DNA of 64,000 bases, taken from contig OU696574.1 in assembly GCA_916048095.2 (NCBI GenBank), forward strand, positions 5,011,001 to 5,075,000, given 5' to 3'. The notes beneath the pieces are model-generated. The model made no database searches and was not told the DNA's origin. It saw only the letters and a list, made by a program, of their open reading frames with translations. The DNA is from Sacculina carcini. Lineage: Eukaryota; Arthropoda; Thecostraca; Sacculinidae. The position numbers were made by a program, and so were the translations under genes. Positions 4,504-59,344 of the stretch are shown piece by piece (position 1 is the first letter of the stretch; each line of letters opens with the position of its first letter).

Positions 4504-4579
4504 GGTTGACGATTTGTTGAGTACGAGGTAGAATATTTAGATCCAAAATGTATGATGTACTCACGTGTCTGGTGGATAA

Positions 4580-22676: not shown

Positions 22677-22681
22677 GTTCT

Positions 22682-23061: not shown

Positions 23062-23097
<36 letters not shown>

Positions 23098-23741: not shown

Positions 23742-24594
23742 CCAATGCCACCTAGATACAAGGCCGTTTCACGATTTTGTGACGTCACAGCGTTCGGCCA
23801 ACGTCGGTGCAGTGTGTATGTGTTGCGGTGCACTGTTAGTTGATATTTTGCGTACGCCGGTGCATTATTTTCACAATTACTCCCAGTTTTAAATGAAACC
23901 TTGCATTTAGAAGCTGTATAATGCTTAACAATTCTTTTTACAACCTAATACAAACAAAATTTAGGAGGTTTACGATCATGTATTGTACCAAGCGTGCGAA
24001 TTAACAACAAGAAAACGGTCAAATATAGAAGCCAATATGACATGTTTCATTAATTACTTGCCACAGTGAATTCAGACACGGGCACGCTATTTAATTCATC
24101 ATTCACAACATGCTGCAGCCCATCAACATGTCGACAAAAACGTGTTTACACACTTCACGAATACAACATTGTGAAATACAAAGCCAATAACTGAGCATAA
24201 ATTCCAGCATTGACAAACAACAATAAATGTGATGGTTATTTATGCTTAAATATCGCATAGAACAGCGGTCCGAAACATGCGCTAATTATCCGCTGATAGA
24301 TATTGTAAGTGTGTTTGTAAGTGTTGATTTGTCAATTGTAAGTGTCGCTAAGTGGGGAACTAATGTCGGATAGAAGGACAAATGCGTGTTTTTATCAATC
24401 CGAAATCTTTCATTTTCGCTTATATCGACTTCCTGACATTAAATTTGTTCGAACCACTGGATTCATAAGATTTCTCAGCGGTGCCAAGAAATCAATGAAT
24501 TGACACGCTTTCACATGAGAATATTGAATAATCGATCTTAAAGCAAATCCATGGGCAATATTCACTCTATATCAACGATAATGACACACGCAGA

Positions 24595-26639: not shown

Positions 26640-26808
26640 CGATGCAGCGTCAGCGTTTCAATGGTTTGTAGCTGAGTCATTAGCATCGGTTTATAGATGA
26701 GTCATAGCAAGATGTGATACCCAGGTAGCGTTAGGACGGACGAGCTGACGTAACACCCCCCATGGGGAGGGGATGGAAGGGCCTTGTATCTAGGTGGCGT
26801 TGGTTCAG

Positions 26809-27503
26809 CACACAGATACGCACACCTGTACACACCAATGTGCCGTTGGTGACACGCACACACACACATGTACGGTCTAGATCACAATAGCTTTATTATT
26901 CTAGATCACAATAGCTGGTATCTCCTTGTTTACATTAGTTTGCGTATAAGCAGTACGAGGCCAGAACGTCGGTCTTGTGCACGCAAATTTACATTCATTA
27001 CTGTAAACACAATGGGTATCCACGCTGATTGTTGCTAGTTGCTCGATTAATAGGGACAATGCTTGCATAGTAACCACCGTGGGGACGTGTATTTTATAGT
27101 TGTATATTATAGTTGTTGCAATGCACTGTGCTGACATTGTAGTACTCGTAAATTAAGAGTTCGTGTCTAGCTTGGAGCTGAATAGCGTAATATGCGGCGC
27201 TTGTTAGACGTATTAAAGCAGCTGTTTTTAACATTCTGGGTCGTATACACAACTGGTAGAATGTGTTTGGACAAAGAGATAGTTGAGATAGATTGTGAGG
27301 GGATGTACAGCTGAGAGGATGTGTTTGAGACCGACGCATTGCAGTTCATCTGCAATGCAACTGTGTTTGAACTGGACGTCAATAATTAATGCGGCACACC
27401 ACTCTAAGAGGCCTGCACGACATCATGATTATAAAACTAGATCACATTGACAAACTGTGACGGTTTGTAGCCGTGCAAACTGTAACAAAATGTTTTCAAC
27501 AAG
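26809..27503. other. E1 internal region, part 2
   Basis: Matches 42942-43438 of E2, where about 150 bp corresponding to 27016-27215 is missing. No gene is seen. Confidence 0.7.
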
Positions 27504-27511
27504 CTGATCAC

Positions 27512-28740
27512 TAGGGCTGTCAAAAGTTAATAAAGTTACTTTTTTACCTAAAGGTCACTTTTTCATAAGCTACCTAAAACTGCATGAAAAAGTTATGTAC
27601 GATAATTATTCAAAAAGTTATTAGGTTACCAAAAGTTACTTTTTCATCGTTAGGTTACTTTTTTGCTTTTAAGGTTACTTTTTTATCGTCAGGTTACCTT
27701 TTGTTATTTTTCTTGTTATTAGGTAAGTTTACCACGAAGTTTGGTGACTTTTTGCAGATAAGAGGCACAAAAACGGTATATATGAGGATAAAATAGGAAA
27801 AGAAATGGAATATTAGGTCTAAAGATCAAGAAATGTCAACATTTCTGCTGTTAGGATTTAGCAATTGATATTCATCCGTGCTACTCGATATTTATACGTT
27901 TTTGGGTACGCAGGATAGTGTAATTCCATTTTAGGAAATGTCCACGAACTGGAGGGTGTCGTGAGATGTTTGGAGCGTGGTATAGTACGATGTGTGAGCT
28001 CTCTATACCAGATACTGCACTGTAGCACTTGACAGTACGTATTTACTTTAACAGGAATTTGCACGTGATTTTCAGGGCGTGAGATAGCGCCATTATCCCA
28101 CGTTTGACATATGGGAGGACGGGGGGCATTCACACATGCAGTGTTAAAAGAAAGTGTTAAGTGAAGAGAGTGTTAAGTGTTAAGTTGATAAAAAGTTCAT
28201 TGAAAAAATATACAGAACATTATTGCGACCATTACTAAAAATATTTACATTTGCAATTAGTGTATTTCGCATTTGTATGAGCTTTCCACTTGAAATTACA
28301 TTTTGATGGTTATGCTCCTTTTTTCGATGTTAGCTAAATTATGTTAAGTCACTTTTGGTTGTTTGTTGTAAAAATGGTACCAGATCGGAGAGGGTGTAAA
28401 AGTAGTATCAACTCGGAAAGGTGATAAAAAAGAAGGACTGGTGTATTTTCTTCCTTCAGAACTGCAAACAGAAATTGACCTTTTTTGAAGGAGGTTATTT
28501 TTAGGTTACCTTTTTATTGGTTATTAGGTTACTTTATATGTTCACAAACAAACAACAAACAAACCGTGTATTTCACATGGCGCACTAATCAGCAAAGGCG
28601 TGATAAACATGTGATAAAACGATACAAAAGTGACAATAACATTAAAACTCAGGTTATTTTTAGGTTACTTTTTTAGGTTACTTTTTCTCGAAAATAAAGT
28701 TACTTTTTCTGATTTTTAGGTTACTTTTTTGACAGCCCTA
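27512..28740. mobile_element. hAT-like non-autonomous element, copy 1
   Basis: 1229 bp, TIR TAGGGCTGTCAAAA...TTGACAGCCCTA. The 8-bp target duplication is CTGATCAC (27504-27511, 28741-28748). E2 at about 43436 has the empty site. Both sub-terminal zones contain many copies of GGTTACTTTTT. This copy is the most diverged of four. No transposase frame is found, so it depends on a helper. Confidence 0.93.
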
Positions 28741-28748
28741 CTGATCAC

Positions 28749-29387
<639 letters not shown>

Positions 29388-29400
29388 TGTGACGGAACGG
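29388..29400. mobile_element. Extra Ginger-B terminal stub
   Basis: TGTGACGGAACGG directly precedes another TGTGACGGAACGG at 29401. It is either the tip of an outer Ginger-B in which the next one inserted (target ACGG, the reverse complement of CCGT) or a 13-bp slippage duplication. Confidence 0.6.
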
Positions 29401-29639
29401 TGTGACGGAACGGATGGCGACCTGGAACGGATGGCGACCTGACGTTTGCGACGCGTTTAAGGCATTCAATGCCTTCACTGAATATTTATTCCTTCACTGA
29501 AACTTGTAGGGTCTGTTATGAAATTGCATTTGTTGTTTGAATAGTCTCTTGCTGTCATATTCTGAGTTCGCATTGATTTAATACGTCTTATTGGGGCCTT
29601 TATTTACTTGAGTGCTTATTCTGGTGTCATATTTTGTTG
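29401..29639. repeat. Ginger-B left TIR (inner part lost into gypsy-3 split)
   Basis: It opens TGTGACGG, then twice the word AACGGATG followed by GCGACCT, then TTGCGACGCG and the conserved TTTAAGGCATTCAATGCC. From there it is closely similar to the Ginger-A TIR. It ends at GTTG (29636-29639), the target duplication of gypsy-3. Confidence 0.88.
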
Positions 29640-30013
29640 TGTAACGCTTCGACTCCACAAGTATACAAACACCGGCCACGGCGTGGAACAGAATAAGAAT
29701 GTATTGCATTTCCTGCGGGCTTATATAGGGTCGGTCAGGTCATGTCGTGTCATCAGTTGATTGGTCCACGTCAGCAGTAACACGGTCACACATACAGGAC
29801 AAATCCGTCAATACACAAAGCGCTTAACATTACATTAATTTACAAACATTAATTAAGGCGATGATTCATAAAAACAATATTCAAACGTAATTAAATTAAA
29901 TGATCACAAATCAATTCATAAAGAGAAACAACAAACGACCGCAGCTCACACACTCTCGATGAGGGATGCCAATTGAGACCAATCTGGGTCACAAATTGTT
30001 GCCACTCACTATA
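29640..30013 (-). repeat. Gypsy-3 3' LTR
   Basis: 374 bp. Its 306 leftmost bases match 34626-34931, and the rest matches 53531-53598 after E2. Adjacent (30014-30026) the minus strand reads GGTAGGGGGAGTCC, the polypurine tract. Confidence 0.92.
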
Positions 30014-30027
30014 GGACTCCCCCTACC
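30014..30027 (-). promoter_or_regulatory. Gypsy-3 polypurine tract
   Basis: In sense GGTAGGGGGAGTCC, directly before the 3' LTR start TATAGTG. It supports the non-canonical LTR boundary. Confidence 0.75.
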
Positions 30028-34625: not shown

Positions 34626-34931
34626 TGTAACGCTTCGACTCCACAAGTATACAAACACCGGCCACGGCGTGGAACAGAATAAGAATGTATTGCATTTCCT
34701 GCGGGCTTATATAGGGTCGGTCAGGTCATGTCGTGTCATCAGTTGATTGGTCCACGTCAGCAGTAACACGGTCACACATACAGGACAAATCCGTCAATAC
34801 ACAAAGCGCTTAACATTACATTAATTTACAAACATTAATTAAGGCGATGATTCATAAAAACAATATTCAAACGTAATTAAATTAAATGATCACAAATCAA
34901 TTCATAAAGAGAAACAACAAACGACCGCAGC
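34626..34931 (-). repeat. Gypsy-3 5' LTR, larger piece
   Basis: 306 bp that match 29640-29945. It stops at GACCGCAGC, the 9-bp target of E2. The missing 68 bp are at 53531-53598. Confidence 0.93.
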
Positions 34932-35231
34932 GAGTCTAGTACCTTTGGTGCGACATCCACTTCACGCGACGCTGTTTTGCATTGTACATACCTGTTACGT
35001 CATCGACTTCAAAACGAGTGACGTATTTAGGTCTACTAGTGATGCCAGCAAGCCATAGAGAAATTGTAAGCCACTTCGTTCGACACCTTGGTTTATCACC
35101 AGATTTCCCGGTTGACCACTCATACTCGACAGTGTATCTTTGGTGCGCGTCGTGTGTGTTCGTTCTCGGTCTTTGGCGTGTGTTCTGCAGTGGTCATTTT
35201 GATGGTACGTGGTTATCTTTCTTACTAGTAG
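34932..35231. repeat. E2 left arm tip
   Basis: Inverted repeat of 53223-53521, with few mismatches (for example TTTTGCATTG versus TTTTGCACTG). It is also the counterpart of 8778-9074. Confidence 0.93.
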
Positions 35232-37146
35232 TATATTGGTATTAAGTATGGTCTGAATTGACTGCTATATCAGTACTCTCTATAATCATGTTTCCTTTTC
35301 ATTATTGATTGTGAGATATATTGGTATTAAGTATGGTCTGAATTGACTGCTTTACCAAGACTCTCTATAATCATGTTTCCTTTTCACCTTGATTATGAGA
35401 TATATTGGTATTAAGTATGGTCTGAATTGACTGCTTTATCAATACTCTCTATAATCATGTTTCCTTTTCATTTTTGATTGTGAGATATATTGGTATTAAG
35501 TATGGTCTGAATTGACTGCTTTATCAAGAGTCTCTATAATCATGTTTCCTTTTCATTTTTGATTGTGAGATATATTGGTATTAAGTATGGTCTGAATTGA
35601 CTGCTTTATCAATACTCTCTATAATCATGTTTCCTTTTCACCTTGATTATGAAATATATTGGTATTAAGTATGGTCTGAATTGACTGCTTTACCAAGACT
35701 CTCTATAATCATGTTTCCTTTTCACCTTGATTATGAGATATATTGGTATTAAGTATGGTCTGAATTGACTGCTTTATCAATACTCTCTATAATCATGTTT
35801 CCTTTTCATTTTTGATTGTGAGATATATTGGTATTAAGTATGGTCTGAATTGACTGCTTTATCAAGAGTCTCTATAATCATGTTTCCTTTTCATTTTTGA
35901 TTGTGAGATATATTGGTATTAAGTATGGTCTGAATTGACTGCTTTATCAATACTCTCTATAATCATGTTTCCTTTTCACCTTGATTATGAAATATATTGG
36001 TATTAAGTATGGTCTGAATTGACTGCTTTATCAATACTCTCTATAATCATGTTTCCTTTTCACCTTGATTATGAGATATATTGGTATTAAGTATGGTCTG
36101 AATTGACTGCTTTACCAAGACTCTCTATAATCATGTTTCCTTTTCACCTTGATTATGAGATATATTGGTATTAAGTATGGTCTGAATTGACTGCTTTATC
36201 AATACTCTCTATAATCATGTTCCCTTTTCACCTTGATTATGAGATATATTGGTATTAAGTATGGTCTGAATTGACTGCTTTATCAAGAGTCTCTATAATC
36301 ATGTTTCCTTTTAACCTTGATTATGAAATATATTGGTATTAAGTATGGTCTGAATTGACTGCTTTACCAAGACTCTCTATAATCATGTTTCCTTTTCACC
36401 TTGATTATGAGATATATTGGTATTAAGTATGGTCTGAATTGACTGCTTTATCAAGAGTCTCTATAATCATGTTTCCTTTTCATTTTTGATTATGAGATAT
36501 ATTGGTATTAAGTATGGTCTGAATTGACTGCTTTATCAAGAGTCTCTATAATCATGTTTCCTTTTCATTTTTGATTGTGAGATATATTGGTATTAAGTAT
36601 GGTCTGAATTGACTGCTTTATCAATACTCTCTATAATCATGTTTCCTTTTCACCTTGATTATGAAATATATTGGTATTAAGTATGGTCTGAATTGACTGC
36701 TTTATCAATACTCTCTATAATCATGTTTCCTTTTCACCTTGATTATGAGATATATTGGTATTAAGTATGGTCTGAATTGACTGCTTTACCAAGACTCTCT
36801 ATAATCATGTTTCCTTTTCACCTTGATTATGAGATATATTGGTATTAAGTATGGTCTGAATTGACTGCTTTATCAAGAGTCTCTATAATCATGTTTCCTT
36901 TTAACCTTGATTATGAAATATATTGGTATTAAGTATGGTCTGAATTGACTGCTTTACCAAGACTCTCTATAATCATGTTTCCTTTTCACCTTGATTATGA
37001 GATATATTGGTATTAAGTATGGTCTGAATTGACTGCTTTATCAAGAGTCTCTATAATCATGTTTCCTTTTCATTTTTGATTATGAGATATATTGGTATTA
37101 AGTATGGTCTGAATTGACTGCTTTATCAATACTCTCTATAATCAAT
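35232..37146. repeat. E2 left satellite array
   Basis: About 22-23 head-to-tail units of 84-85 bp. Variants are CACCTTGATTAT versus CATTTTTGATTGT, GAGATATA versus GAAATATA, and ATCAAGAGTC, ATCAATACTC or ACCAAGACTC. They recur in blocks of several units, for example the GAAATATA variants near 35650, 35988, 36325, 36662 and 36915, indicating a higher-order structure. Confidence 0.95.
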
Positions 37147-39769
37147 TTTCAGCTACCTGATTCATTGTGATCCTGAGGTGCTTATTTGTCACATTAATAG
37201 ACAGTATTTGTCGTGTTATGTATGCTGGTGTTGACATGTAACCTGATCGCATGCCGTGTTTTGTTTTGTTTTTCAGTTGAGTCGCCGGCGCGCTGTGCAT
37301 GCAGTCTCGGGGCTCATCACAGTACTTGATCGAGGCTGGGTGGAGGATTGATCATCTCGTCGCCCACATCGAGATTAAGAACGGTCTTGTATCGTGCTGT
37401 CTGTAGTGTCTGGTTTCTGGATGTGGCAGGGCAACTGGCATGCATTCTCACTGCATGCGTGTTCAGCCGACGACGACGGTGATTACTAATTGTTCAGTTA
37501 TCACGTCCACGTTTCAATTGTTTTCTCGTGTGTTGGCTTGCGTGCATGTGCTGTAGTGTTTGGTGACGGTGTGTGTGTGTGTGTGTGTGTGATTGATTCA
37601 GTGGATCGTGTATTGTTATGCAGTAGTGTTACGAGATCGCAGCTTCGCTCATACTGTTTTTGCTTCATTATTCAAGTCATGTTTCATATCACCAGTGTTC
37701 TTGCACTATTATCTCTTGGCTCGGTTATAGACATTAATTCGTCTCAAATTAGCACTTTATTGCATTATATTTTTTGCATCGAATTTTCGTTTTTGCGTTT
37801 TTTCTTACCTCGTTCGTTCTTACCTCGCCTTGTCTGTGCGATTTTTATCAGCTCCACACAAAACTTCAAAACCCCACTTCTTCCTAACTTAATTTTGCCT
37901 ATATCCGCCCGAGTGGTATATTTCGCTTGAAATTCAATATAAATGTTTGTGAACTTTTTGCAAACAGTGCTGAATTTTCTCAACTGTTTACCGGTTCTAC
38001 TTTATCTCTCAATATGTGTTTATTGTTGTGTCTTTTTCTCTGTTTCTCATGTTGCTTCATGTTATCATATAGTGTCATGTGTCAGTGTTTATTGCACTAT
38101 GACTGTTTTTGTTTGTGTGCTTTGTCCACTCATTGCGCGCTTGTATAATATGCTACGTTGTTACTGTTGTTTCGTGGTCTTATGACATGCTTGTATTGTG
38201 CATATATTGGCTGGCTATGATATGTATAAGACATTCAGGGTAACATTATTATATCCTGCGTTATGAGCATTTGGTGGACCTGATTTTTGTTATAATCATT
38301 TGTAATCGTCGTCTCTGTTCTTACGTGTCTTCTAACCAATACATTGTTACATATTATATTGTTTAGTGGCGGACAGAGTGCGTAGCGAAACGAAGAGTTT
38401 AATTAAGTACATCGTCGAGCACATGTGCGTATTCCAGAAGCGTTTTTCTAGTGTGTACGTGTAGTTTACCAATATTGTAATTGAAATTCATATTGATTTT
38501 CCTATCAGTGTTTGTTTTTCACATTGGCTCTACACACCGTGTCATGTAGTTGAACTTTTGTGGCGTTGGTCTCACGAGCTTCACTGGACCAATTTTCTGG
38601 ACCGACTATATGCTGCGACATACACGATTGCAGATCAGATTGTAATGACACACAACCACATTGCTGAAATCTCAGAGAAGACTGTGCGATTGTGTGCTTG
38701 GTAACGGTGTTTTGTATGTTTTGTAACAGCGGAGCGACCTCAAAACTACACACAAATATACATGGACACACACATGAATATTTACATTTTCATTTCGTTC
38801 AATTTCTACACAATTTCTAGGTTTTGCAGACAGTACAATAATTACAATGTGGACTTGAACAAACATACACACATACATGTACGTTCATTCATAACAACAT
38901 ACAAACACGTACATTCGGCGTGAGTGTGGATTTATCACTGTCACTGACAGGTCCGTTAGAATCCTTCGGCATTTCGGCAAGCAAGCATTTCGGCATCAAG
39001 ACAGAACGTGATGTATAGCCAAAAGGACCGCAAGCACATGTATACAAGTATAAGCAGTCAGGCAGGCTGGAAAACATGGCTGACAGCCACTAACCCTTCT
39101 GCTTTTCAAAACAGGTCTTATTTTCACCATGTATGACCGATATTCCACACCTGCTGACCGATATACACATATCCACATGCACTCACACACAGGCAAACAG
39201 AACACCGACCCTCGTCTTCCCCTACACACGCGTGCACACGCACAAACACACACATACACACAAACATACACCGCCGGCACAGGCACAAAGGCCAGTGACA
39301 GCGGCGATACAACATGATAACAGAAAGACGTGCGAATGCAAACGACAGTTATGCATAGAAAAACGATATAAATATTTGTATAACATTTGAATATTTATAA
39401 TATTTGAATAACATTGGTAGACCAAAACAATGCAAATTCATCAAATCCTACAATACAAGCTATATACAATGCCAGAAATTATTTACAACAATTATAACAT
39501 ACGCATTCAATATCTCATTCACAGCGAATACTTCGGCTTTATGCAGAATTTTCCGATCATCAGATATTTGGAGCAAGTGTTTAAATATTAGATATTTGAA
39601 GATAATATAAGATATTAATTTTGATTGATGTCAGATAGATAAGATAGATCATATAAATGGACAGATAAATATTGTAGATTAGATAGATTTTTATTATTGA
39701 TTAGATATTGATAAATAATGCAAAATATTTGAAGTAAGTGTTTTTTCAACCAGTTCTTGAAGACATTCA
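37147..39769. repeat. E2 left arm, unique part
   Basis: No gene. It is paralogous to 15506-18458 and, inverted, to 46442-51308. It has (TG)n at 37570-37591. A candidate exon-like block at about 37277-37381 is framed by TTTGTTTTTCAG and AACGGT, but its frame closes quickly. Small open frames are broken differently in each copy. Confidence 0.8.
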
Positions 39770-40084
39770 GAGATCGGGACGATTTTACGTAGAATGGATA
39801 TTCTTTATACAAGCTGGGAGCATAAAACATCGAATATAATGGGTGTGGCGGGTAGCAAACTTCAACAAGGCATAACAAGGCAATACAACTTATGTATGGC
39901 ATTTATAATATGCTATACATATATTTTATTTTGATATATTAATTTAATTATCACTGTGTACATTTCTGGTAAGTGGTTTTTCGTTGCGCATTACGACTCA
40001 CATTGTAGCTAAAAGTAAGGATTTAGAGACGAGAGCGTCGGTTTTGCGCACGCATACATGTCATTTCGCGCGCGCACATTTTTA
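39770..40084. other. E2 internal region, part 1
   Basis: Counterpart of 22685-23010 in E1. AT-rich, no gene seen. Confidence 0.7.
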
Positions 40085-40092
40085 CTTATAAC

Positions 40093-41357
40093 TAGGGCTG
40101 TCAAAAAAGTAACCTAAAAACCAGAAAAAAGTAACTTTATTTTCGAGAAAAAGTAACCTAAAAAAGTAACCTAAAATAACCTATGAGTTGTAATGTTATT
40201 ATTACTTTTGCATCGCTTTATCACATGTTTATCACGCCTTTGCTGATTAGTGCGCTATATCAAATACACGGTTTGTTTGTTGCTTGTTTGTGAACATAAA
40301 AAGTAACCTAATAACCTATAAAAAGTAACCTAAAATAACCTAACCTTCGTAAAAATAACCTTCAAAAAAGGTCAACTTCTGTTTGCAGTTCTGAAGGAAG
40401 AAAATACACCAGTCCTTCTTTTCTATCCTCTTTCCGAGTTGGTACTATTTTTCTATCCTCTCTCCGATCTGGTACCATTTTTACAACAAACCACCAAAAG
40501 TCTCTTAATATTATTTGGCTAACATCGCAAAAAGGAGCATACCCATCAAAATGCAATTTAAAGTGGAAAGCTAATACAAATGCGAAATACACTACTTGCT
40601 AATGTAATTATTTTTAGTAATGGTCGCAATAATGTTCTTTATATTCTTTCAATGAAACTTGTTATCAAATAGAACGTACTACAGCTTGCATTTTAGTGTG
40701 AGCCTAAACACTACAAGCATATGTAGCAGCCTGTGCTCACTGTGTTATAAATGTCAAACGTGGGAAAATGGCGCTATATCACGCCCTGAAAATCACGTGT
40801 TAATTCCTGTTCAAGTAAATGCGTACTGTCAAGTGCTACAGTGCAGTATCTGGTATAGAGAGCTCACACATCGTACTATACCACGCTCCATACATCTCAC
40901 GACACCCTTCGGTTCGTGGACATTTCCTAAAATGGAATGACGCTATCCTGTGTACCGAAAAACGTATAAATATCGAGTAGTACAGATATTAAGGTGCATA
41001 TCAATTGCTAAATCCTAACAGCAGCAACTTTGACATTTCTTGATCTTCAGACCTTATATTCCATCTCTTTTCCTATTTTATCCTCATATATACAGTTTTT
41101 GTGCCTCTTATCTGCAAAAAGTCACCAAACTTCGTGGTAAACTTACCTAATAACCAGAAAAGTAACAAAAGGTAACCTGACGATAAAAAAGTAACCTAAA
41201 AGCAAAAAAAGTAACCTAACGATGAAAAAGTAACTTTTGGTAACCTAATAACTTTTTAAATAATTATCGTACACAACTTTTTCATGCAGTTTTAGGTAGC
41301 TTATGAAAAAGTGACCTTTAGGTGAAAAAGTAACTTTATTAACTTTTGGCAGCCCTA
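40093..41357. mobile_element. hAT-like non-autonomous element, copy 2
   Basis: 1265 bp with TIR TAGGGCTG and TSD CTTATAAC (40085-40092, 41358-41365). E1 has the empty site TTTTTACTTATAACTTCATG near 23013. It is nearly the same as copy 4 in inverted orientation. The longest frame (76 codons, minus strand) has no recognisable domain. Confidence 0.95.
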
Positions 41358-41365
41358 CTTATAAC

Positions 41366-41839
41366 TTCATGCGGTTCTTGTCGCTAGTAGATCCTCGTTG
41401 TCAATTAAATTGTATGTGTGTGTGTGTGTGTGAGTGTGTGTGTTTGTGTATATATGTGTGTGTGTGTGTGCGTTCTTACACAGTCTAACAACATAGATTT
41501 TACTTTGATTTACGCACATAGAATCACCCACAAATGCACACACACGCACACACCCACAAACACACATACACATGGACAAAGTTTCGAGCAATCATTAAAT
41601 TGATTGACTGTATGTATAGAATCTATGTGAAAAACGAAAACACATAAACATTGTTATTTACAAATACAATAAGTGTGTTTGCATGTGTGTATGTGTATGT
41701 GTGTGAGTGTGTGTGAGTGTGTATGTATGTGCGATCGCTCCGCTTCTACAAGCGTGTCAGAACAGTTCGCAGAAATGAAGCAGAAATCGCAGATCGCAGG
41801 TAAGTTTCTAGCAATCGCTCAACTGAATGACAGTGTGTA
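41366..41839. other. E2 internal region, part 2
   Basis: Counterpart of 23012-23512 in E1, with shorter TG runs (41412-41471). No gene seen. Confidence 0.7.
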
Positions 41840-41844
41840 GAATG

Positions 41845-42713
41845 TGTAGTCTTGATTTCTTCCGATAGCACCCGTTTGTGGTCACGGTGGTGCTTCTTCT
41901 CGCGATTCTTGTGATAGTCTAGATTTGTTTTCCCAATAGCTCGTGTTAATAACTCTCCCCCACGGAGGTCTGCCGGTCCAGCTTGTTGAACAAACGTAAA
42001 CACTGTATTTGTCAACAGCAGCAGCGTAGCGATGCGATATCAAACAACACACGGACGATAGTGGTCAAACAGCCCAAACACAAAGCACGATCGACCAAGC
42101 CACAAGGCTCAACACGAGTAAACGAATAGACAATAGACCAGACCAAAAACTCTCGAGGACCAAGGTCCAAAAGAACTCCGTAAGACCTAACCCGAAAGAC
42201 CTAGAGAATCGCCTCCCTGTCTCTTTTATGCGACGCGCGACGGTCAACTGAGGCAGAGCTAGTGCAAGCGCGTACCTATGCTCCTCACCGGCTGGTTGGT
42301 GTTAGTTTCCTCGTAAGTCTCTGACTAATCTTCCCCGGGTGGACAAATTTGGATTCCCTGCTATTGTTTTTGTCGGTTAACCTACTCATCGAGCGGGTAA
42401 TAAAATTCTCATAAAGTGGTGTGATTTCTCTGGACGCTCTGGTCAACACGTGTTAAGCGGGAGACAAGTCTGGGGTTGACACATTTCTGTGAGATGAATT
42501 TATGGCCCCTGCATTCCTTCACGCGCGCTAGCTGCTTGCAGTAGCTCGTCGCTGTCCGCCACGCGCTCATATTACATGCTGACTAAGCATAGGCGTGCGG
42601 GGTTGCCACGCTTGTTGGGATACACACAGATACGCTTAACAGGCAATTATATAATTAGCTTTTACACACAGAAATAAAGCAGAATAAATGAAGCGAGAAA
42701 CATCTCTGCTACA
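41845..42713 (+). mobile_element. Solo LTR
   Basis: 869 bp from TGTAGTCTTG to TCTGCTACA, flanked by GAATG on both sides (41840-41844, 42714-42718). The counterpart in E1 (GTGTAGAATGAAAGTG near 23515) lacks it. Two AATAAA signals near the right end (42673-42687) favour the plus orientation. There is no internal sequence, so LTR-LTR recombination probably removed it. Gypsy or BEL/Pao origin is not resolved. Confidence 0.9.
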
Positions 42714-42718
42714 GAATG

Positions 42719-43467
42719 ACAGTGAAAAACAAACACTAATAGAAAAACCAATGTTAATTACATTTACAATATTCGTAAGCTACACATACACGCTCGAAAA
42801 AAGGTTCTGGAACACGCACATACACGACGATATACTAAACACTATATAATTAAACGCTCTATTTTACTATGCGTTCTGTCCGCCACTGTGCATTTGCAAA
42901 CACTGCTGAGTAATTTAAACACTCGCTGCAATACATGTTCAGCACACAGATACGCACACCTGTACACACCAATGTGTCGTTGGTGACACGCACACACACA
43001 CATGTACGGTCTAGATCACAATAGCTTTATTATTCTAGATCACAATAGCTGGTATCTCGTTGTTTACATTAGTTTGCATATAAGCAGTAGGAGGCCAGAA
43101 CGTCGGTCTTGTGCACCCAAATTTACATTCATTACTGTTACGTATTGAAGCAGCTGTTTTTAACATTCTGGGTCGTATGCACAACTGGTAGAATGTGTTT
43201 GGAAAAAGAGATAGTTGAGATAGATTGTGAGGGGATGTACAGCTGAGAGGATGTGTTTGAGACCGACGCAATGCAATTCATCTGCAATGCAACTGTGTTT
43301 GAACTGGACGTCGATAGTTAACGCGGCACACAACTCTAAGAGGCCTGCACGACATCATGATTATAAAACTAGATCACATTGACAAACTGTTTCGGTTTGT
43401 AACCGTGCAAACTGTAACAAACTGTTTTCAACAAACTTATCACAGTAACAAACTGTTTTATTTGGTG
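42719..43467. other. E2 internal region, part 3
   Basis: Counterpart of 23517-23741 plus 26804-27503. It contains the uninterrupted sites of the 3.06-kb TIR element (near 42939) and of hAT-like copy 1 (near 43436). No gene seen. Confidence 0.75.
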
Positions 43468-43471
43468 CCGT

Positions 43472-43741
43472 TGTGACGGCCCAAGATGCGACCTGGCCCA
43501 AGATGCGACCTCGACGCTTGCGACGCGTATAAGGCATTCAATGCCTCCTAGGGTCTGTTATTATCTGTTATGAAATTGCATTTGTTGTTTGAATAGTTTC
43601 TTGCTGTCATATTCTGAGTTCACATTGATTTAATAAGTCTTATTGGGGCCTATATTTACTTGAGTGCCTATTCTGGTGTCTTATTTTCGTTGCAGTGGAA
43701 GTTGTTTGGACCAATTCCATTGTTTGTTGTGTTTTGTTGTG
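43472..43741. repeat. Ginger-A left TIR
   Basis: 270 bp. The tip is TGTGACGG, then word CCCAAGAT, GCGACCTGG, word CCCAAGAT, GCGACCT, CGACGC. It matches the reverse complement of 45633-45902 with few differences. Confidence 0.93.
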
Positions 43742-44973
43742 GGAATGGTATCTGTTCAGGAAAATAGCTGCAGACGTTGAGCTATTATCTAGGTGATATT
43801 TGTCTTTGTGAACGATTTTTGTCTTTGTGCGTATTTGTCTTTGTGTTTGTGGTGTAGTCGTATTGTAGGCCCCAAACATGAGTTTCTTGGGAATTTCGTT
43901 TTGAGCGTGTTCTCCACATGTGTTCATTGCATGCTCCATCTGTTTTCGTTTTTCCTCCTTTTCATCTCTTATGTTGTCAGTCCTGTATTTCTGACTATTT
44001 CTACGAGTTTTGTTTGGCAATTAAACCGAATAAAATCGTTGATCGGTGGTTTGTTTTTCTACGCGTGAGCATGTGCATATTTAAGAAAAACTAATCGAAG
44101 ACGAATACAAACGAATCGAACTAAACGAATCGAAGCTACCTAAACACGTTTTAAATGTATGTAGGTGTACACGTGCATTCACATAGGGGTCATTTGTAGT
44201 GACCCACAGGCTTGGTTCATCCTTAGATTCTTCTGCAATTATTTAGTTCATTGTTGACTGTCGAAGTGTCTCTTGAGTGACTGTTTTCTGAGAATGCATG
44301 GCTGATTTACAGCTCGGCTTACAATCAAAGCATCACCATTTCTTACTAAATCAAATCTAGTTCTGCCACGGGGCTAGCAGAGTGGAATGCAGATGTACAT
44401 GTCCACAATGACTACAGGTTCCCCTTCACCATGGAAAGTATTATCCGCTCAGAGGCGGGGTCTCATAGCTGCCACGCTGCTCGCTGTGACCTGCTTCTCA
44501 TGGACGAAATTCGAGCATACACATACACACACACACACATTGTGTTCAACACTAATCTGAGTAGAATCAGATTGGTTGATGCTGAACAAGTGTTATACCA
44601 ACCATGCAGTTTGAACTTGGACGCCCACTGGAGAATCTGATGTTTGATTATTGAAGAGGGCAGCGATGTTTGTAAATATACCCTCACATCCCCCAGAGTA
44701 GTGATTTAAGTTACATGAACTTCAATAGTTTTTAGTGTGCGTAGCCTACTTTGTCCACATATTGACCATATATAGATTGTTGACCATACGCATTTAAACA
44801 CATCAGTAGAGAAGGCTATGTTCGCGTGTAATTTTGCGGGGGCAAAGCCTCACGGTCCCGGCTGGCACACCGCAGGTCCGGCCGCCACACGGGTTTTCGC
44901 AGTCACAGCCAGCACAGAAATACTTTCTCGACACTCGTATCAATCACGTCACCGTTTGACCAACATAAAGCCC
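43742..44973. other. Ginger-A interior, left part
   Basis: No gene. The part 44816-44973 is closely similar to the reverse complement of 53963-54120 in Ginger-B; it has a GC-rich imperfect dyad around GGCACACCGCAGGTCCGGCC. A short TTTGTCTTTGTG repeat lies at 43799-43850. Confidence 0.7.
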
Positions 44974-44979
44974 ACCACC

Positions 44980-45317
44980 CTTTTGTGGACTCCGTGGTGC
45001 AGTTGTTAGCACACCCGCCTCACAAGCGGGAGGTCCGTGGTTCGAAACCCGGCGGAGCAGAATTTCATTGGGCGAATTCTACACTCCCACAGCCCCTGTC
45101 CACCCAGCAGAAAATGATGGTACCAGATATCAGTCATGGGTTGTGCCATGCATTCTCGGGAGGTGGCCCTCTCTAATACGTCTTACGTCCTTGTGGCGCC
45201 ATAGCGTGGAGAGGGTCGGTTATGCGGTGGCAGCGAGCTGCACGGGGCACACCTGTGTGTTCATAAGCTTCGGCTTCTTCCCGTGTAGCAGCTGTCACTT
45301 AGGCATTTAACCTATTA
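44980..45317 (+). mobile_element. tRNA-derived SINE
   Basis: 338 bp flanked by ACCACC (44974-44979, 45318-45323). Ginger-B has the empty site with a single copy (GGTGGT, 53957-53962). The head is a tRNA-Val-like segment with A and B boxes; the body of about 250 bp has CACCCAGCAGAAAATGATGG and GGAGAGGGTCGG motifs and ends without a poly(A). It is the innermost level of the nest. Confidence 0.92.
44988..45060 (+). tRNA. tRNA-Val(CAC)-like SINE head, not a functional gene
   Basis: D stem GTGC/GCAC is perfect. Anticodon stem CCCGC/GCGGG encloses CTCACAA, giving anticodon CAC. The acceptor keeps only five pairs (CTCCG/CGGAG) and the T stem has two mismatches. A box TGGTGCAGTTG and B box GGTTCGAAACC match polymerase III promoter consensus. 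The continuation into a SINE body and the broken acceptor argue against an active tRNA. Confidence 0.8.
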
Positions 45318-45323
45318 ACCACC

Positions 45324-45632
45324 AGGGAAAACAGTTTAACTCGTGCACTAACCAACAAAGTAACAAGACCAATCAAGCAATAATATATTTCGTATAGCGC
45401 ATATAACCACATATGCGAGCACAAATAATCAACGGCAAGAATAAATAGAATGGATCAAATATAGCAAACACGTATACACACACAATATACAGAAACATCA
45501 AAACCAGATCAAGCACACATGAGAAAGCTAAAAGATTGCCGAAAACAACAGGCAGCAGAAAATAAACGTGCGCTTATCAGTTTAACCACTTAATCACCTG
45601 CGGTATTAACAAACAGCGATCAGAATCAATCG
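45324..45632 (-). other. Ginger-A interior, right part with old LINE tail
   Basis: In minus sense it contains the hairpin-type LINE tail TGCTCGCATATGTGG...ATGCGCTATACGAAATATATT (45375-45425). The same fragment is at about 53868-53905 in Ginger-B, so it was acquired before the two families separated. No gene is seen. Confidence 0.7.
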
Positions 45633-45902
45633 CACAACAAAACACAACAAACAATGGAATTGGTCCAAACAACTTCCACTGCAACGAAAATAAGACACCA
45701 GAATAAGCACTCAAGTAAATATAGGCCCCAATAAGACTTATTAAATCAATGTGAACTCAGAATATGACAGCAAGAAACTATTCAAACAACAAATGCAATT
45801 TCATAACAGATAATAACAGACCCTAGGAGGCATTGAATGCCTTATACGCGTCGCAAGCGTCGAGGTCGCATCTTGGGCCAGGTCGCATCTTGGGCCGTCA
45901 CA
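45633..45902. repeat. Ginger-A right TIR
   Basis: 270 bp, inverted copy of 43472-43741. Its tip carries the same word CCCAAGAT twice (as ATCTTGGG on the plus strand). Confidence 0.93.
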
Positions 45903-45906
45903 CCGT

Positions 45907-46441
45907 GCTTCACGACCAAACAGCACTGTTATAGCAACGCTGGCTTACAAAAATGTTGATGGCTTAGACGAATATCATAATATACCGATATTTGATATTG
46001 TCTGTTTATAGATGAATATTCATTTATTTGCTCACACACACACACACACGCAGACACACACTCGTCTCTTGCCTCTTTTCGGAAGTTACAAATATTTCGC
46101 TTTTTACTGGTTACATGTAATCTACTTGCTATTGAATTACGTATTTTGTTAACTGTTGAATCAGCAGAATTGGGAATGCGAATGAACCCGTTCTTATACG
46201 TTAAATTTCTATTCACTCAGTGATACGCTTTAACAACAAAGATTTCAATTTGTTTTGCGCACACAGCCTCAATCACATATGAACACACACACACACACAC
46301 ACACAATTAAACAAACACACATACACGTTTTTATCCCTCTCTCCATTTTCAGTGATCTCTCAGAGGTAGTATACCCACTATGCACAAATATGCGCGGTGT
46401 GTGTATATATGTGTGTGCATGTGTGTGCATGTTGGATGGAT
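45907..46441. other. E2 internal region, part 4
   Basis: Counterpart of 28777-29387. It has short AC runs at 46034-46050 and 46283-46304. It ends at GGATGGATG, where the inverted right arm begins (TCTTCAAGAAC). No gene is seen. Confidence 0.75.
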
Positions 46442-47286
46442 GTCTTCAAGAACAGGTTAAAAACCAATTGCTTCAAATATTTTGCATTATATATCAATAT
46501 CTAATAAATAATCAAAATCTATCTTATCTATCTAATTTACAATATCTATATGTCCATTTATATGATCTATCTTATCTATCTAATAAATCACAACCTTCTG
46601 CACAATGTGAGACCAGCAGGCCAGCTGTCACTGGCCTTTGTGCCTGTGCCGGCGGTGTATGTTTGTGTGTATCTGTGTGTGTTTGTGCGCGTGTACGCGT
46701 GTGTAGGGGAAGACGAGGGTCGGTGTTCTGTTTGCCTGTGTGTGAGTGCATGTGGATATGTGTATATCGGTCAGCAGGTGTGGAATATCGGTCATACATG
46801 GTGAAAATAAGACCTGTTTTGAAAAGCAGAAGGGTTAGTGGCTGTCAGCCATGTTTTCCAGCCTGCCTGACTGCTTATACTTGTATACATGTGCGTGCGG
46901 TCCTTTTGGCTATACATCACGTTCTGTCTTGATGCCGAAATGCTTGCTTGCCGAAATGCCGAAGGATTCTAACGGACCTGTCAGTGACAGTGATAAATCC
47001 ACACTCACGCCGAATGTACGTGTTTGTATGTTGTTATGAATGAACGTACATGTATGTGTGTACGTTTGTTCAAGTCCACATTGTAATTATTGTACTGTCT
47101 GCAAAACCTAGAAATTGTGTAGAAATTGAACGAAATGAAAATGTAAATATTCATGTGTGTGTGCATGTATATTTGTGTGTAGTTTTGAGGTCGCTCCGCT
47201 GTTACAAAACATACAAAACACTGTTACCAAGCACACAAGCGCACAGTCTTCTCTGAGATTTCAGCAATGTGGTTGTGTGTCATTAC

Positions 47287-48529
47287 TAGGGCTGTCAAAA
47301 AAGTAACCTAAAAACCAGAAAAAAGTAACTTTATTTTCGAGAAAAAGTAACCTAAAAAAGTAACCTAAAAAAACCTGAGTTGTAATGTTATTATTACTTT
47401 TGCATCGCTTTATCACATGTTTATCACGCCTTTGCTGATTAGTGCGCTATATCAAATACACGGTTTGTTTGTTGTTTGTTTGTGAACATAAAAAGTAACC
47501 TAATAACCTATAAAAAGTAACCTAAAATAACCTTCAAAAAAGGTCAACTTCTGTTTGCAGTTCTGAAGGAAGAAAATACACCAGTCCTTCTTTTCTATCC
47601 TCTTTCCGAGTTGGTACTATTTTTCTATCCTCTCTCCGATCTGGTACCATTTTTACAACAAACCACCAAAAGTCTCTTAATATTATTTGGCTAACATCGC
47701 AAAAAGGAGCATAACCATCAAAATGCAATTTAAAGTGGAAAGCTAATACAAATGCGAAATACACTACTTGATAATGTAATTATTTTTAGTAATGGTCGCA
47801 ATAATGTTCTTTATATTCTTTCAATGGAACTTGTTATCAAATAGAACGTACTACAGCTTGCATTTTAGTGTGAGCCTAAACACTACAAGCATATGTAGCA
47901 GCCTGTGCTCACTGTCTTATAAATGTCAAACGTGGGAAAATAGCGCTATATCACGCCCTGAAAATCACGTGTTAATTCCTGTTCAAGTAAATGCGTACTG
48001 TCAAGTGCTACAGTGCAGTATCTGGTATAGAGAGCTCACACATCGTACTATACCACGCTCCATACATCTCACGACACCCTTCGGTTCGTGGACATTTCCT
48101 AAAATGGAATGACGCTATCCTGTGTACCGAAAAACGTATAAATATCGAGTAGCACAGATATTAAGGTGCATATCAATTGCTAAATCCTAACAGCAGAAAT
48201 GTTGACATTTCTTGATCTTCAGACCTAATATTCCATCTCTTTTCCTATTTTATCCTCATATATACAGTTTTTGTGCCTCTTATCTGCAAAAAGTCACCAA
48301 ACTTCGTGGTAAACTTACCTAATAACCAGAAAAGTAACAAAAGGTAACCTGACGATAAAAAAGTAACCTAAAAGCAAAAAAAGTAACCTAACGATGAAAA
48401 AGTAACTTTTGGTAACCTAATAACTTTTTAAACAATTATCGTACACAACTTTTTCATGCAGTTTTAGGTAGCTTATGAAAAAGTGACCTTTAGGTGAAAA
48501 AGTAACTTTATTAACTTTTGGCAGCCCTA
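47287..48529. mobile_element. hAT-like non-autonomous element, copy 3
   Basis: 1243 bp; TSD GTCATTAC (47279-47286, 48530-48537). The left arm has the empty site (GATTGTAATGACACAC near 38638). Very similar to copies 2 and 4, with small deletions in the sub-terminal GTAACCTAA repeats. Confidence 0.95.
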
Positions 48530-49705
48530 GTCATTACAATCTGATCTGCAATCGTGTATGTCGCAGCATATAGTCGGTCCAGAAAATTGGTCCAGTGAAG
48601 CTCGTGAGACCAACGCCACAAAAGTTCAACTACATGACACGGTGTGTAGAGCCAATGTGAAAAACAAACACTGATAGGAAAATCAATATGAATTTCATTT
48701 ACAATATTGGTAAACTACACGTACACACTAGAAAAACGCTTCTGGAATACGCACATGTGCTCGACGATGTACTTGATTAAACTCTTCGTTTCGCTACGCA
48801 CTCTGCCCGCCACTAAAGAATATAATATGTAACAATGTATTGGTTAGAAGACATGTAAGAACAGAGACGACGATTACAAATGATTATAACAAAAATCAGG
48901 TCCACCAAATGCTCATAACGCAGGATATAATAATGTTACCCTGAATGTCTTATACATATCACAGCCAGCCAATATATGCACAATACAAGCATGTCATAAG
49001 ACCACGAAACAACAGTAACAACGTAGCATATTATACAAGCGCGCAATGAGTGGACAAAGCACACAAACAAAAACAGTCATAGTGCAATAAACACTGACAC
49101 ATGACACTATATGATAACATGAAGCAACATGAGAAACAGAGAAAAAGACACAACAATAAACACATATTGAGAGATAAAGTAGAACCGGTAAACAGTTGAG
49201 AAAATTCAGCACTGTTTGCAAAAAGTTCACAAACATTTATATTGAATTTCAAGCGAAATATACCACTCGGGCGGATATAGGCAAAATTAAGTTAGGAAGA
49301 AGTGGTGTTTTTGAAGTTTTGTGTGGAGCTGATAAAAATCGCACAGACAAGGCGAGGTAAGAACGAACGAGGTAAGAAAAAACGCAAAAACGAAAATTCG
49401 ATGCAAAAAATATAATGCAATAAAGTGCTAATTTGAGACGAATTAATGTCTATAACCGAGCCAAGAGATAATAGTGCAAGAACACTGGTGATATGAAACA
49501 TGACTTGAATAATGAAGCAAAAACAGTATGAGCGAAGCTGCGATCTCGTAACACTACTGCATAACAATACACGATCCACTGAATCAATCACACACACACA
49601 CACACACACACACACCGTCACCAAACACTACAGCACATGCACGCAAGCCAACACACGAGAAAACAATTGAAACGTGGACGTGATAACTGAACAATTAGTA
49701 ATCAC

Positions 49706-50970
49706 TAGGGCTGCCAAAAGTTAATAAAGTTACTTTTTCACCTAAAGGTCACTTTTTCATAAGCTACCTAAAACTGCATGAAAAAGTTGTGTACGATAAT
49801 TATTTAAAAAGTTATTAGGTTACCAAAAGTTACTTTTTCATCGTTAGGTTACTTTTTTTGCTTTTAGGTTACTTTTTTATCGTCAGGTTACCTTTTGTTA
49901 CTTTTCTGGTTATTAGGTAAGTTTACCACGAAGTTTGGTGACTTTTTGCAGATAAGAGGCACAAAAACTGTATATATGAGGATAAAATAGGAAAAGAGAT
50001 GGAATATAAGGTCTGAAGATCAAGAAATGTCAAAGTTGCTGCTGTTAGGATTTAGCAATTGATATGCACCTTAATATCTGTACTACTCGATATTTATACG
50101 TTTTTCGGTACACAGGATAGCGTCATTCCATTTTAGGAAATGTCCACGAACCGAAGGGTGTCGTGAGATGTATGGAGCGTGGTATAGTACGATGTGTGAG
50201 CTCTCTATACCAGATACTGCACTGTAGCACTTGACAGTACGCATTTACTTGAACAGGAATTAACACGTGATTTTCAGGGCGTGATATAGCGCCATTTTCC
50301 CACGTTTGACATTTATAACACAGTGAGCACAGGCTGCTACATATGCTTGTAGTGTTTAGGCTCACACTAAAATGCAAGCTGTAGTACGTTCTATTTGATA
50401 ACAAGTTTCATTGAAAGAATATAAAGAACATTATTGCGACCATTACTAAAAATAATTACATTAGCAAGTAGTGTATTTCGCATTTGTATTAGCTTTCCAC
50501 TTTAAATTGCATTTTGATGGGTATGCTCCTTTTTGCGATGTTAGCCAAATAATATTAAGAGACTTTTGGTGGTTTGTTGTAAAAATGGTACCAGATCGGA
50601 GAGAGGATAGAAAAATAGTACCAACTCGGAAAGAGGATAGAAAAGAAGGACTGGTGTATTTTCTTCCTTCAGAACTGCAAACAGAAGTTGACCTTTTTTG
50701 AAGGTTATTTTTACGAAGGTTAGGTTATTTTAGGTTACTTTTTATAGGTTATTAGGTTACTTTTTATGTTCACAAACAAGCAACAAACAAACCGTGTATT
50801 TGATATAGCGCACTAATCAGCAAAGGCGTGATAAACATGTGATAAAGCGATGCAAAAGTAATAATAACATTACAACTCATAGGTTATTTTAGGTTACTTT
50901 TTTAGGTTACTTTTTCTCGAAAATAAAGTTACTTTTTTCTGGTTTTTAGGTTACTTTTTTGACAGCCCTA
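49706..50970. mobile_element. hAT-like non-autonomous element, copy 4
   Basis: 1265 bp; TSD GTAATCAC (49698-49705, 50971-50978). The left arm has the empty site (GGTGATTACTAATTG near 37478). It has the same length as copy 2 and appears almost identical to its reverse complement. Confidence 0.95.
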
Positions 50971-51308
50971 GTAATCACCGTCGTCGTCGGCTGAACACGC
51001 ATGCAGTGAGAATGCATGCCAGTTGCCCTGCCACATCCAAAAACCAGACACTACAGACAGCACGATACAAGACCGTTCTTAATCTCGATGTGGGCGACGA
51101 GATGATCAATCCTCCACCCAGCCTCGATCAAGTACTGTGATGAGCCCCGAGACTGCATGCACAGCGCGCCGGCGACTCAACTGAAAAACAAAACAAAACA
51201 CGGCATGCGATCAGGTTACATATCAACACCAGCATACATAACACGACAAATACTGTCTATTAATGTGACAAATAAGCACCTCAGGATCACAATGAATCAG
51301 GTAGCTGA

Positions 51309-53222
51309 AAATTGATTATAGAGAGTATTGGTAAAGCAGTCAATTCAGACCATACTTAATACCAATATATCTCATAATCAAGGTTAAAAGGAAACATGAT
51401 TATAGAGACTCTTGATAAAGCAGTCAATTCAGACCATACTTAATACCAATATATCTCATAATCAAAAATGAAAAGGAAACATGATTATAGAGACTCTTGA
51501 TAAAGCAGTCAATTCAGACCATACTTAATACCAATATATCTCATAATCAAGGTGAAAAGGAAACATGATTATAGAGAGTATTGATAAAGCAGTCAATTCA
51601 GACCATACTTAATACCAATATATCTCATAATCAAGGTGAAAAGGAAACATGATTATAGAGACTCTTGATAAAGCAGTCAATTCAGACCATACTTAATACC
51701 AATATATCTCATAATCAAGGTGAAAAGGAAACATGATTATAGAGACTCTTGATAAAGCAGTCAATTCAGACCATACTTAATACCAATATATCTCATAATC
51801 AAGGTGAAAAGGAAACATGATTATAGAGAGTATTGATAAAGCAGTCAATTCAGACCATACTTAATACCAATATATCTCATAATCAAGGTGAAAAGGAAAC
51901 ATGATTATAGAGAGTATTGATAAAGCAGTCAATTCAGACCATACTTAATACCAATATATCTCATAATCAAAATGAAAAGGAAACATGATTATAGAGAGTA
52001 TTGGTAAAACAGTCAATTCAGACCATACTTAATACCAATATATCTCATAATCAAGGTGAAAAGGAAACATGATTATAGAGTCTTGGTAAAGCAGTCAATT
52101 CAGACCATACTTAATACCAATATATTTCATAATCAAGGTTAAAAGGAAACATGATTATAGAGACTCTTGATAAAGCAGTCAATTCAGACCATACTTAATA
52201 CCAATATATCTCATAATCAAGGTGAAAAGGGAACATGATTATAGAGAGTATTGATAAAGCAGTCAATTCAGACCATACTTAATACCAATATATCTCATAA
52301 TCAAGGTGAAAAGGAAACATGATTATAGAGAGTCTTGGTAAAGCAGTCAATTCAGACCATACTTAATACCAATATATCTCATAATCAAGGTGAAAAGGAA
52401 ACATGATTATAGAGAGTATTGATAAAGCAGTCAATTCAGACCATACTTAATACCAATATATCTCATAATCAAAAATGAAAGGGAAACATGATTATAGAGA
52501 CTCTTGGTAAAGCAGTCAATTCAGACCATACTTAATACCAATATATCTCATAATCAAGGTGAAAAAGGAAACATGATTATAGAGACTCTTGATAAAGCAG
52601 TCAATTCAGACCATACTTAATACCAATATATCTCATAATCAAGGTGAAAAGGAAACATTATTATAGAGACTCTTGATAAAGCAGTCAATTCAGACCATAC
52701 TTAATACCAATATATCTCATAATCAAAAATGAAAAGGAAACATGATTATAGAGACTCTTGATAAAGCAGTCAATTCAGACCATACTTAATACCAATATAT
52801 CTCATAATCAAGGTGAAAAGAAAACATGATTATAGAGACTCTTGGTAAAGCAGTCAATTCAGACCATACTTAATACCAATATATCTCATAATCAAGGTGA
52901 AAAGGAAACATGATTATAGAGACTCTTGATAAAGCAGTCAATTCAGACCATACTTAATACCAATATATCTCATAATCAAGGTGAAAAGGAAACATGATTA
53001 TAGAGAGTATTGATAAAGCAGTCAATTCAGACCATACTTAATACCAATATATCTCATAATCAAAAATTAAAAGGAAACATGATTATAGAGACTCTTGGTA
53101 AAGCAGTCAATTCAGACCATACTTAATACCAATATATCTCACAATCAAAAATGAAAAGGAAACATGATTATAGAGAGTACTGATATAGCAGTCAATTCAG
53201 ACCATACTTAATACCAATATAA
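51309..53222. repeat. E2 right satellite array (inverted)
   Basis: About 22-23 units of the 84-85 bp satellite in the opposite orientation, spanning 1.91 kb, the same length as the left array within a few bases. The order of unit variants is not the exact mirror of the left array, and one unit near 52078 is two bases short (GAGTC instead of GAGAGTC). Confidence 0.95.
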
Positions 53223-53521
53223 TACTAGTAAGAAAGATAACCACGTACCATCAAAATGACCACTGCAGAACACACGCCAAAGACCGAGAACGAACACAAA
53301 CGACGCGCACCAAAGATACACTGTCGAGTATGAGTGGTCAACCGGGAAATCTGGTGATAAACCAAGGTGTCGAACGAAGTGGCTTACAATTTCTCTATGG
53401 CTTGCTGGCATCACTGCTAGACCTAAATACGTCACTCGTTCGGAAGTCGATGACGTAACAGGTATGTACAGTGCAAAACAGCGTCGCGTGAAGTGGATGT
53501 CGCACCAAAGGTACTAGACTC
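53223..53521. repeat. E2 right arm tip
   Basis: Inverted copy of 34932-35231, ending GGTACTAGACTC at 53521 and followed by the 9-bp duplication GACCGCAGC. Confidence 0.93.
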
Positions 53522-53530
53522 GACCGCAGC

Positions 53531-59131: not shown

Positions 59132-59318
59132 ATCAATGTGAACTTAGAATATGATAGCAAGAAACTATTCAAACAACAAATGCAATTTCATAACAGATAA
59201 TAACAAACCCTACACGTTTCAGTGAAGGAATTAATGTTCAGTGAATGCATTAAATGCCTTAAACGCGTCGTAAACGTCAGGTCGCCATCCGTTCCAGGTC
59301 GCCATCCGTTCCGTCACA
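59132..59318. repeat. Ginger-B right TIR
   Basis: Inverted counterpart of 29401-29595. The tip has word AACGGATG twice (CATCCGTT on plus) and CCGTCACA at 59311-59318, followed by CCGT. Confidence 0.88.
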
Positions 59319-59340
59319 CCGTTCCAGGTCGCCATCCGTT
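59319..59340. mobile_element. Remnant tip of another Ginger-B
   Basis: CCGTTCCAGGTCGCCATCCG-TT repeats the Ginger-B tip up to the base before its last CCGT. It shows that one Ginger-B end was itself inserted in the tip of another. Confidence 0.75.
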
Positions 59341-59344
59341 CCGT

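Follow-up and report, generated by a model that had tools for sequence, protein, structure and literature searches.

The genome of Sacculina carcini contains a family of large DNA transposons that moved recently, which we identified starting from a copy at 34932–53521 of a 64,000-nucleotide window. The window, i.e., the whole stretch of DNA analysed, corresponds to positions 5011001–5075000 of contig C4 in a 264-Mb assembly of 43 contigs. Copies share a layout of 300-bp tips, a satellite array of 84-bp units, inner arms of more than 2 kb, and a centre that is non-coding as far as scanned. Within a copy, homogenisation affects the inner arms but not the tips, and it weakens from the inner to the outer end of the satellite. 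We regard the family as probably a young, non-autonomous, foldback-type cut-and-paste DNA transposon that is moved by a transposase of the Mutator-like element (MULE) kind, with inner arms homogenised by gene conversion and with arrays that shield the tips.

The window copy is a genuine element with exactly defined borders. It begins with GAGTCTAGTACC on the plus strand at 34932, ends with the reverse complement at 53510–53521, and is bracketed by GACCGCAGC at 34923–34931 and 53522–53530. The window contains a third GACCGCAGC, at 29937, which lies inside an intact long terminal repeat (LTR) belonging to the gypsy element that hosts the copy in its other LTR. This intact LTR (29640–30014) represents the empty site: the left flank matches 29640–29945 (306/306 bases), the right flank matches 29937–30014 (78/78 bases), and the two matches overlap by exactly the 9-bp duplication, which proves the borders. 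The inverted ends and the duplication claimed in a preliminary description, made from the sequence alone, were thus located together with a base-perfect empty site. Its two LTR pieces, said to sum to 374 bp, do rejoin in the intact LTR, but over 375 bp, one base off. Interrupted and intact LTR differ at 0 positions, and because they are identical, the insertion is young. The only run of N in the window (4887–5086) lies outside the element. The features of the window copy and its empty site are as follows (strand given where assigned):

34923–34931, left 9-bp target-site duplication GACCGCAGC (from the ends and the empty-site comparison)
34932–35231, plus strand, left tip, the outer domain of the inverted repeat, starting with GAGTCTAGTACC (from a tip search of the genome)
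35232–37150, plus strand, left satellite array, ~23 units of 84–85 bp (from unit anchors)
37151–39302, plus strand, left inner arm, pairing with the right inner arm at 98.6–99.0% (from arm alignment)
39303–46623, centre, non-coding as far as scanned, common to other copies, with three nested insertions
40093–41357, nested, presumably hAT-like miniature inverted-repeat transposable element (MITE) with TAGGGCTG ends and 8-bp duplication CTTATAAC
41845–42713, nested probable solo LTR (TGTAG...CTACA) with 5-bp duplication GAATG
43472–45902, nested terminal inverted repeat (TIR) element with TGTGACGGCCC ends, 17-bp repeats, and 4-bp duplication CCGT
46624–51306, minus strand, right inner arm in three pieces with two nested MITEs between them
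47287–48529, nested, presumably hAT-like MITE with 8-bp duplication GTCATTAC
49706–50970, nested, presumably hAT-like MITE with 8-bp duplication GTAATCAC
51307–53221, minus strand, right satellite array, ~23 units (from unit anchors)
53222–53521, minus strand, right tip, ending with GGTACTAGACTC
53522–53530, right 9-bp target-site duplication (from the ends and the empty-site comparison)
29640–30014, intact gypsy LTR, the empty-site control (from flank matches)

Each arm starts with a 300-bp tip followed by 23 satellite anchors, which agrees with the ~300-bp tips and 22–23 units per arm described before. Identity between the arms was 96.6% for the outer part (34931–37488 versus 53522–50969) and 98.6–99.0% for the pieces of the inner part. 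The right inner arm is not continuous, being interrupted by two nested MITEs. Comparison with another copy (L015) delimited five nested insertions, each with its own duplication: three MITEs with TAGGGCTG ends, which we take to be hAT-like from these ends and their 8-bp duplications, one probable solo LTR, and one 2.4-kb TIR element. Together, they account for ~7.1 kb of 18.6 kb, leaving a core of ~11.5 kb. The epithet "giant" is owed in part to the nested insertions; many copies measure 10–12 kb, and the shortest (L038) 9.8 kb.

A 309-bp tip query against the genome yielded 103 candidates, and the 40 that were scored all matched at 97–100%. Furthermore, there were 49 exact occurrences of a 20-base tip pattern (none for the reversed control), 78 of a 26-base tip pattern with ≤3 mismatches (control: 0), and 70 of a 32-base inner-arm word with ≤2 mismatches (control: 0). 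This word formed 27 facing pairs 6.7–21 kb apart, i.e., at least 27 two-armed copies, of which 19 were read from tip to tip (the window copy and 18 others). The check proposed in the preliminary description, namely whether other copies of the tip have 9-bp duplications, succeeded: duplications measured 9 bp in 12 of the 19 pairs (window copy, L009, L011, L013, L015, L019, L021, L025, L027, L029, L036, and L038) and 8 bp in two (L040 and L042), and five pairs had none (L017, L023, L031, L033, and L044). All 14 duplications differ in sequence and have no obvious common motif. Arms and centre are common to the copies, mostly at 90–98% identity, and the centre was found in either orientation, which fits the near symmetry of the element. 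A different centre (5.3 kb) was found in L036; pieces of it are shared with L031, and the inner parts are in places ~75% like those of other copies.

To compare arms within and between copies, we aligned the 1.57 kb directly inside the satellite for 18 copies. L033, with its rearranged ends, was excluded from every arm and tip test, and L036 (left inner arm of just 393 bp) and L019 (deletion in the left arm) were kept. Inner arms were a median of 0.54% (mean 1.01%) apart within a copy versus 1.84% (mean 2.20%) between copies. In 14 of 18 cases, the left arm was closest to the right arm of the same copy, and none of 20000 random shuffles was equally tight (0/20000), which likewise applies to the 14 copies with duplications. 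By contrast, the 300-bp tips were a median of 2.0% apart within and 2.33% between copies. Here, 2740 of 20000 random pairings were equally tight for the 18 copies, a shuffle distorted by the right end of L044, which is out of register (48% apart), and 17191 of 20000 for the 14 copies with duplications. Bootstrapping of the within/between ratio gave 0.45 (95% 0.25–0.66) for inner arms and 1.05 (95% 0.95–1.12) for tips; this analysis, the satellite-unit test, and the T/C count below each cover 16 copies, without L031 and L044.

The satellite units connect the two domains by a gradient. In twelve uncorrected tests, the inner-end units −1, −2, and −3 gave p = 0.0008, 0.022, and 0.0008, units 5, −6, −5, and −4 gave values between 0.04 and 0.13, and the outer-end units 0–4 gave p = 0.17, 0.07, 0.59, 0.40, and 0.36. 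In L023 and L029, whose right array is interrupted, the unit scored as innermost in that array differs from the true one. Within the first 200 inner-arm columns from the array edge, arms were 0.35% apart within and 1.11% between copies. At a T/C site at tip position 15, the ends are mixed in 11 of 16 copies (~8 expected by chance); among the nine mixed copies with known centre orientation, the C type lies at one end in seven and at the other end in two. This is no more than suggestive; two tip types are possibly kept together.

Where uninterrupted, the array of an arm counts ~7–38 units (84 bp each). The arms of 17 of 18 copies are unequal in unit count and/or interrupted; equal anchor counts were found in the window copy (23/23) and in L029 (14/14), the right array of the latter being interrupted. 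A 42-base word of the unit has 552 exact occurrences in the genome. On contigs C1 and C2, no free satellite was found among the units listed, all of which lie within ~17 kb of a tip; the other contigs had one satellite place each among the matches listed. The unit does not appear to repeat a motif of the tip: the longest word in common has 7 bases, the same as for shuffled tips.

The preliminary statement that no transposase is encoded was consistent with our scan of 20 open reading frames (ORFs) from L015, L036, and L038 (10 of the 23 L038 ORFs of ≥75 aa) against Pfam: none of them had a match above the curated cut-off, and a few weak matches below it were chance-like in look. Three of the scanned ORFs were from L036 and gave no transposase match, and none was recognised by eye among the ORFs listed for L031. 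Longer ORFs in some copies resemble, by eye, nested retroelements. As no autonomous copy was found among the copies examined, the family appears to be non-autonomous as far as its sequences were read. Two loci were considered and rejected as carriers of the missing enzyme. The first, C36:118401/123882, was a candidate for a transposase-bearing sister family, but only ~57 bp of the tip are common to it (by eye) before the sequence enters another repeat family (536 candidates, 40 scored); we read the locus as a chimera beside frames of a long interspersed nuclear element (LINE) within a 3.1-kb, 99.7% palindrome. The second, a 4.3-kb tip pair on C20, consists of a diverged inner arm (88–90%, 535 bp) and foreign sequence, and no transposase was seen by eye in the 2 kb read.

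Two tip loci in this genome are large palindromes. At C36:111382–131381 (L046 with L047 and L048), the inverted repeat of 3.1 kb (99.74%) surrounds LINE-like frames, and ~57 bp of the foldback tip are joined there to a different large repeat family. The structure may have arisen by recent inverted duplication or may be an assembly fold. L031–L032 (contig C2:7055644–7072358) is a palindrome with 5.4-kb arms at 98.9%, which runs on at 99% through the 300 bp of flank read. The structure is an inverted duplication with a foldback copy at its centre, and the inclusion of flanking DNA explains why a target-site duplication is missing. These two huge, near-perfect palindromes at tip loci are what could be said for regarding the large inverted structure as such as an assembly artefact, a chimeric hairpin. 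We consider this extremely improbable. Canonical copies usually have unequal arrays, tips that are a median of 2% apart, and 9-bp duplications outside, and the nested MITEs of the window copy do not lie at mirrored places, none of which an artificial fold would yield. The ~2% difference between tips also argues against arms that were collapsed or copied during assembly. In L025, the arms reach 6.27 kb (99.1%) and take in most of the centre with the 9-bp duplication intact; these arms grew through inverted duplication of the centre.

As judged from sequence comparison, the data suggest conversion from the centre outward, with the tips shielded by unequal arrays. The short tips would be recognised by a transposase encoded outside the element, most likely a MULE (Mutator/Phantom) enzyme, which would insert the element through a 9-bp staggered cut, in line with the observed ends, duplication, and empty site. 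Between transpositions, pairing of the inverted arms, either intramolecular or in the course of repair, would allow gene conversion to hold the two inner arms of each copy close to identity. Such conversion (or copying) may begin near the centre, move outward, and fade across the satellite arrays, where unequal lengths would break the register, so that the tips escape. The tips, presumably bound by the transposase, would then lie beyond the reach of conversion. Arrays would lengthen and shorten over time, and at least one copy has extended its arms through inverted duplication of the centre.

Several observations weigh against this proposal. Four of the 18 copies (L019, L038, L040, and L044) have a left arm whose closest relative is an arm of some other copy. 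The within/between contrast is small in columns 400–800 of the inner arm (1.7% versus 2.4% and 4.1% versus 5.1%). The five of 19 pairs without a duplication belong here as well, as does the fact that no transposase gene carrying these tips was found among the 20 ORFs and the tip-sharing loci. Finally, reassortment of tips via recombination between satellites of different copies would leave a pattern much like shielding. In an explanation of this kind, the first arm would serve as the template for a new second arm whenever the element transposes or a gap is repaired (fold-back synthesis), and crossing over in the arrays would then reassort the tips between copies. Satellite units are indeed nearly as alike between copies (4.34 mean differences) as within an array (4.07) or between the arms of one copy (4.25; 640 units). 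The right arms of L038 and L044, on different contigs, are 0.71% apart, compared with 1.86% and 1.78% to their own left arms, and inverted copying does occur, as in the arm extension of L025 into its centre and the duplication of L031 with 300 bp of flank. However, 14 of 19 pairs retain matching duplications, so that exchange would have to come before insertion. For L023, which has no duplication, a search for the reciprocal partner of the left flank returned a single match of 17 bases; the sequence around it is unrelated and has no tip. Altogether, we consider fold-back synthesis with exchange unlikely, and the same doubt applies to its corollary that the satellites are exchange hot spots instead of shields.

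Returning to conversion with shielded tips, a more far-reaching and only tentative idea is that the satellite arrays act as a functional insulator, which would uncouple the differing tips read by the transposase from a hairpin stem that conversion between the arms homogenises continually. If true, one part of the inverted repeat would evolve in concert and the other would not, with a gradient across the array. The well-bordered young copies are numerous enough for a statistical approach to why foldback transposons bear satellites in their arms, and the homogenised-inside pattern separates the concerted part of the arm from the part that a transposase must read.

Regarding other features of the window, one further family copy was found by sequence comparison:

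8779–29390, plus strand, second family copy, half-deleted, in pieces, split by other insertions

It comprises tip and satellite (8779–9551), satellite (14098–14658), arm (15112–17808), and core pieces at 18156–18461, 22675–23742, 26803–27511, and 28740–29390; no second tip of this copy was found within the window. It lies 5.5 kb away from the first copy and is interrupted by gypsy-like open frames (by eye), including a 1430-aa frame (9651–13943) between its two satellite stretches. Tandem repeats of 17 bp that are alike in look (GGCCCAAGATGCGACCT, GGAACGGATGGCGACCT) were observed at 29388–29441, 43472–45902, and 59278–59342. The element at 43472 has them at both ends, together with its 4-bp duplication CCGT, and similar repeats were seen by eye in the flanks of L013 and L021. 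By eye, a long open frame on the minus strand (2095–4536) resembles a Penelope-like element, including its reverse transcriptase and GIY-YIG end.

With respect to classification, the family has the long inverted terminal repeats with tandem repeats of foldback elements, and its many copies share ends and duplications. Duplications of MULEs are usually 9 bp long, consistent with Tm1 (see below), and this is the length in 12 of the 19 pairs (Phantom included in this comparison). P elements and hAT elements both make 8-bp duplications, and Maverick/Polinton elements make 6-bp duplications and carry DNA polymerase B and integrase genes. The latter were rejected, given 9-bp duplications and the absence of a polymerase B or integrase domain from the 20 ORFs scanned. 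With 9 bp in 12 of 14 duplications, the family also departs from the P superfamily and from the 8 bp of hAT. On this sequence basis, we filed it as a new family of known kind, foldback by anatomy and MULE by duplication length alone. In FB of Drosophila melanogaster, long inverted repeats contain internal tandem repeats and the duplication is likewise 9 bp; its arm consists mostly of short repeats, each tens of bp long, whereas here an 84-bp satellite lies between the tip and a long inner arm.

Galileo of Drosophila mojavensis speaks for a member of the P superfamily: it also has long, variable, internally repetitive inverted repeats, arms extended inward, and chimeric copies without matching duplications (PMC3573991). 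It differs in its P-superfamily transposase, which is known, its arms of up to ~1.26 kb, and its 7-bp duplication, as opposed to the predominant 9 bp here (PMC3573991). An origin from the P superfamily or hAT instead of MULEs hence seems very improbable. Tm1 of root-knot nematodes has composite inverted repeats with variable tandem units, non-coding members, and no clear target consensus, and its duplications are mostly 9 bp (8–10 bp in 45 of 53), all of which resembles the Sacculina family (PMC3169594). Differences concern its ~14-bp units, elements of 1,080 and 2,593 bp, asymmetric 7-bp ends, and some members that encode a Phantom-type transposase (PMC3169594).

In domain order, the family matches Tetris of Drosophila virilis, which consists of a tip, variable-number tandem repeats, an inner domain, and a variable non-coding middle, with duplications of 8–10 bp (PMC4079207). 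Tetris is also described there as lacking a conserved ORF, with its autonomous partner not found. The foldback-like nature and 9-bp duplication given in the preliminary description stand, but "undescribed" does not fit the architecture; family and size may be new. Tetris has inverted repeats of ≤1,735 bp, ~220-bp units (3 or 4 in one array), and three structurally complete copies (PMC4079207), compared with arms of ~3.5–6.7 kb, ~7–38 satellite units (84 bp), and 14 duplication-flanked copies in Sacculina. Its units are reported to form longer satellite-like arrays too, in contrast to the units listed here on C1 and C2. At 10–12 kb, elements of such architecture can be overlooked or mistaken for genomic palindromes. 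Repeats of two of the three complete Tetris copies group together, and conversion is named as a possible cause (PMC4079207); within-copy homogenisation as such is thus not new. What is new here is the contrast between homogenised inner arms and unhomogenised tips, with a gradient across the satellite, for which no earlier statement was found in the titles and abstract openings of open-licence literature or in passages of the papers cited here. In its mode of action, the Sacculina family resembles Tetris, FB, and Tm1, and a MULE-type transposase is the most likely agent of its movement.

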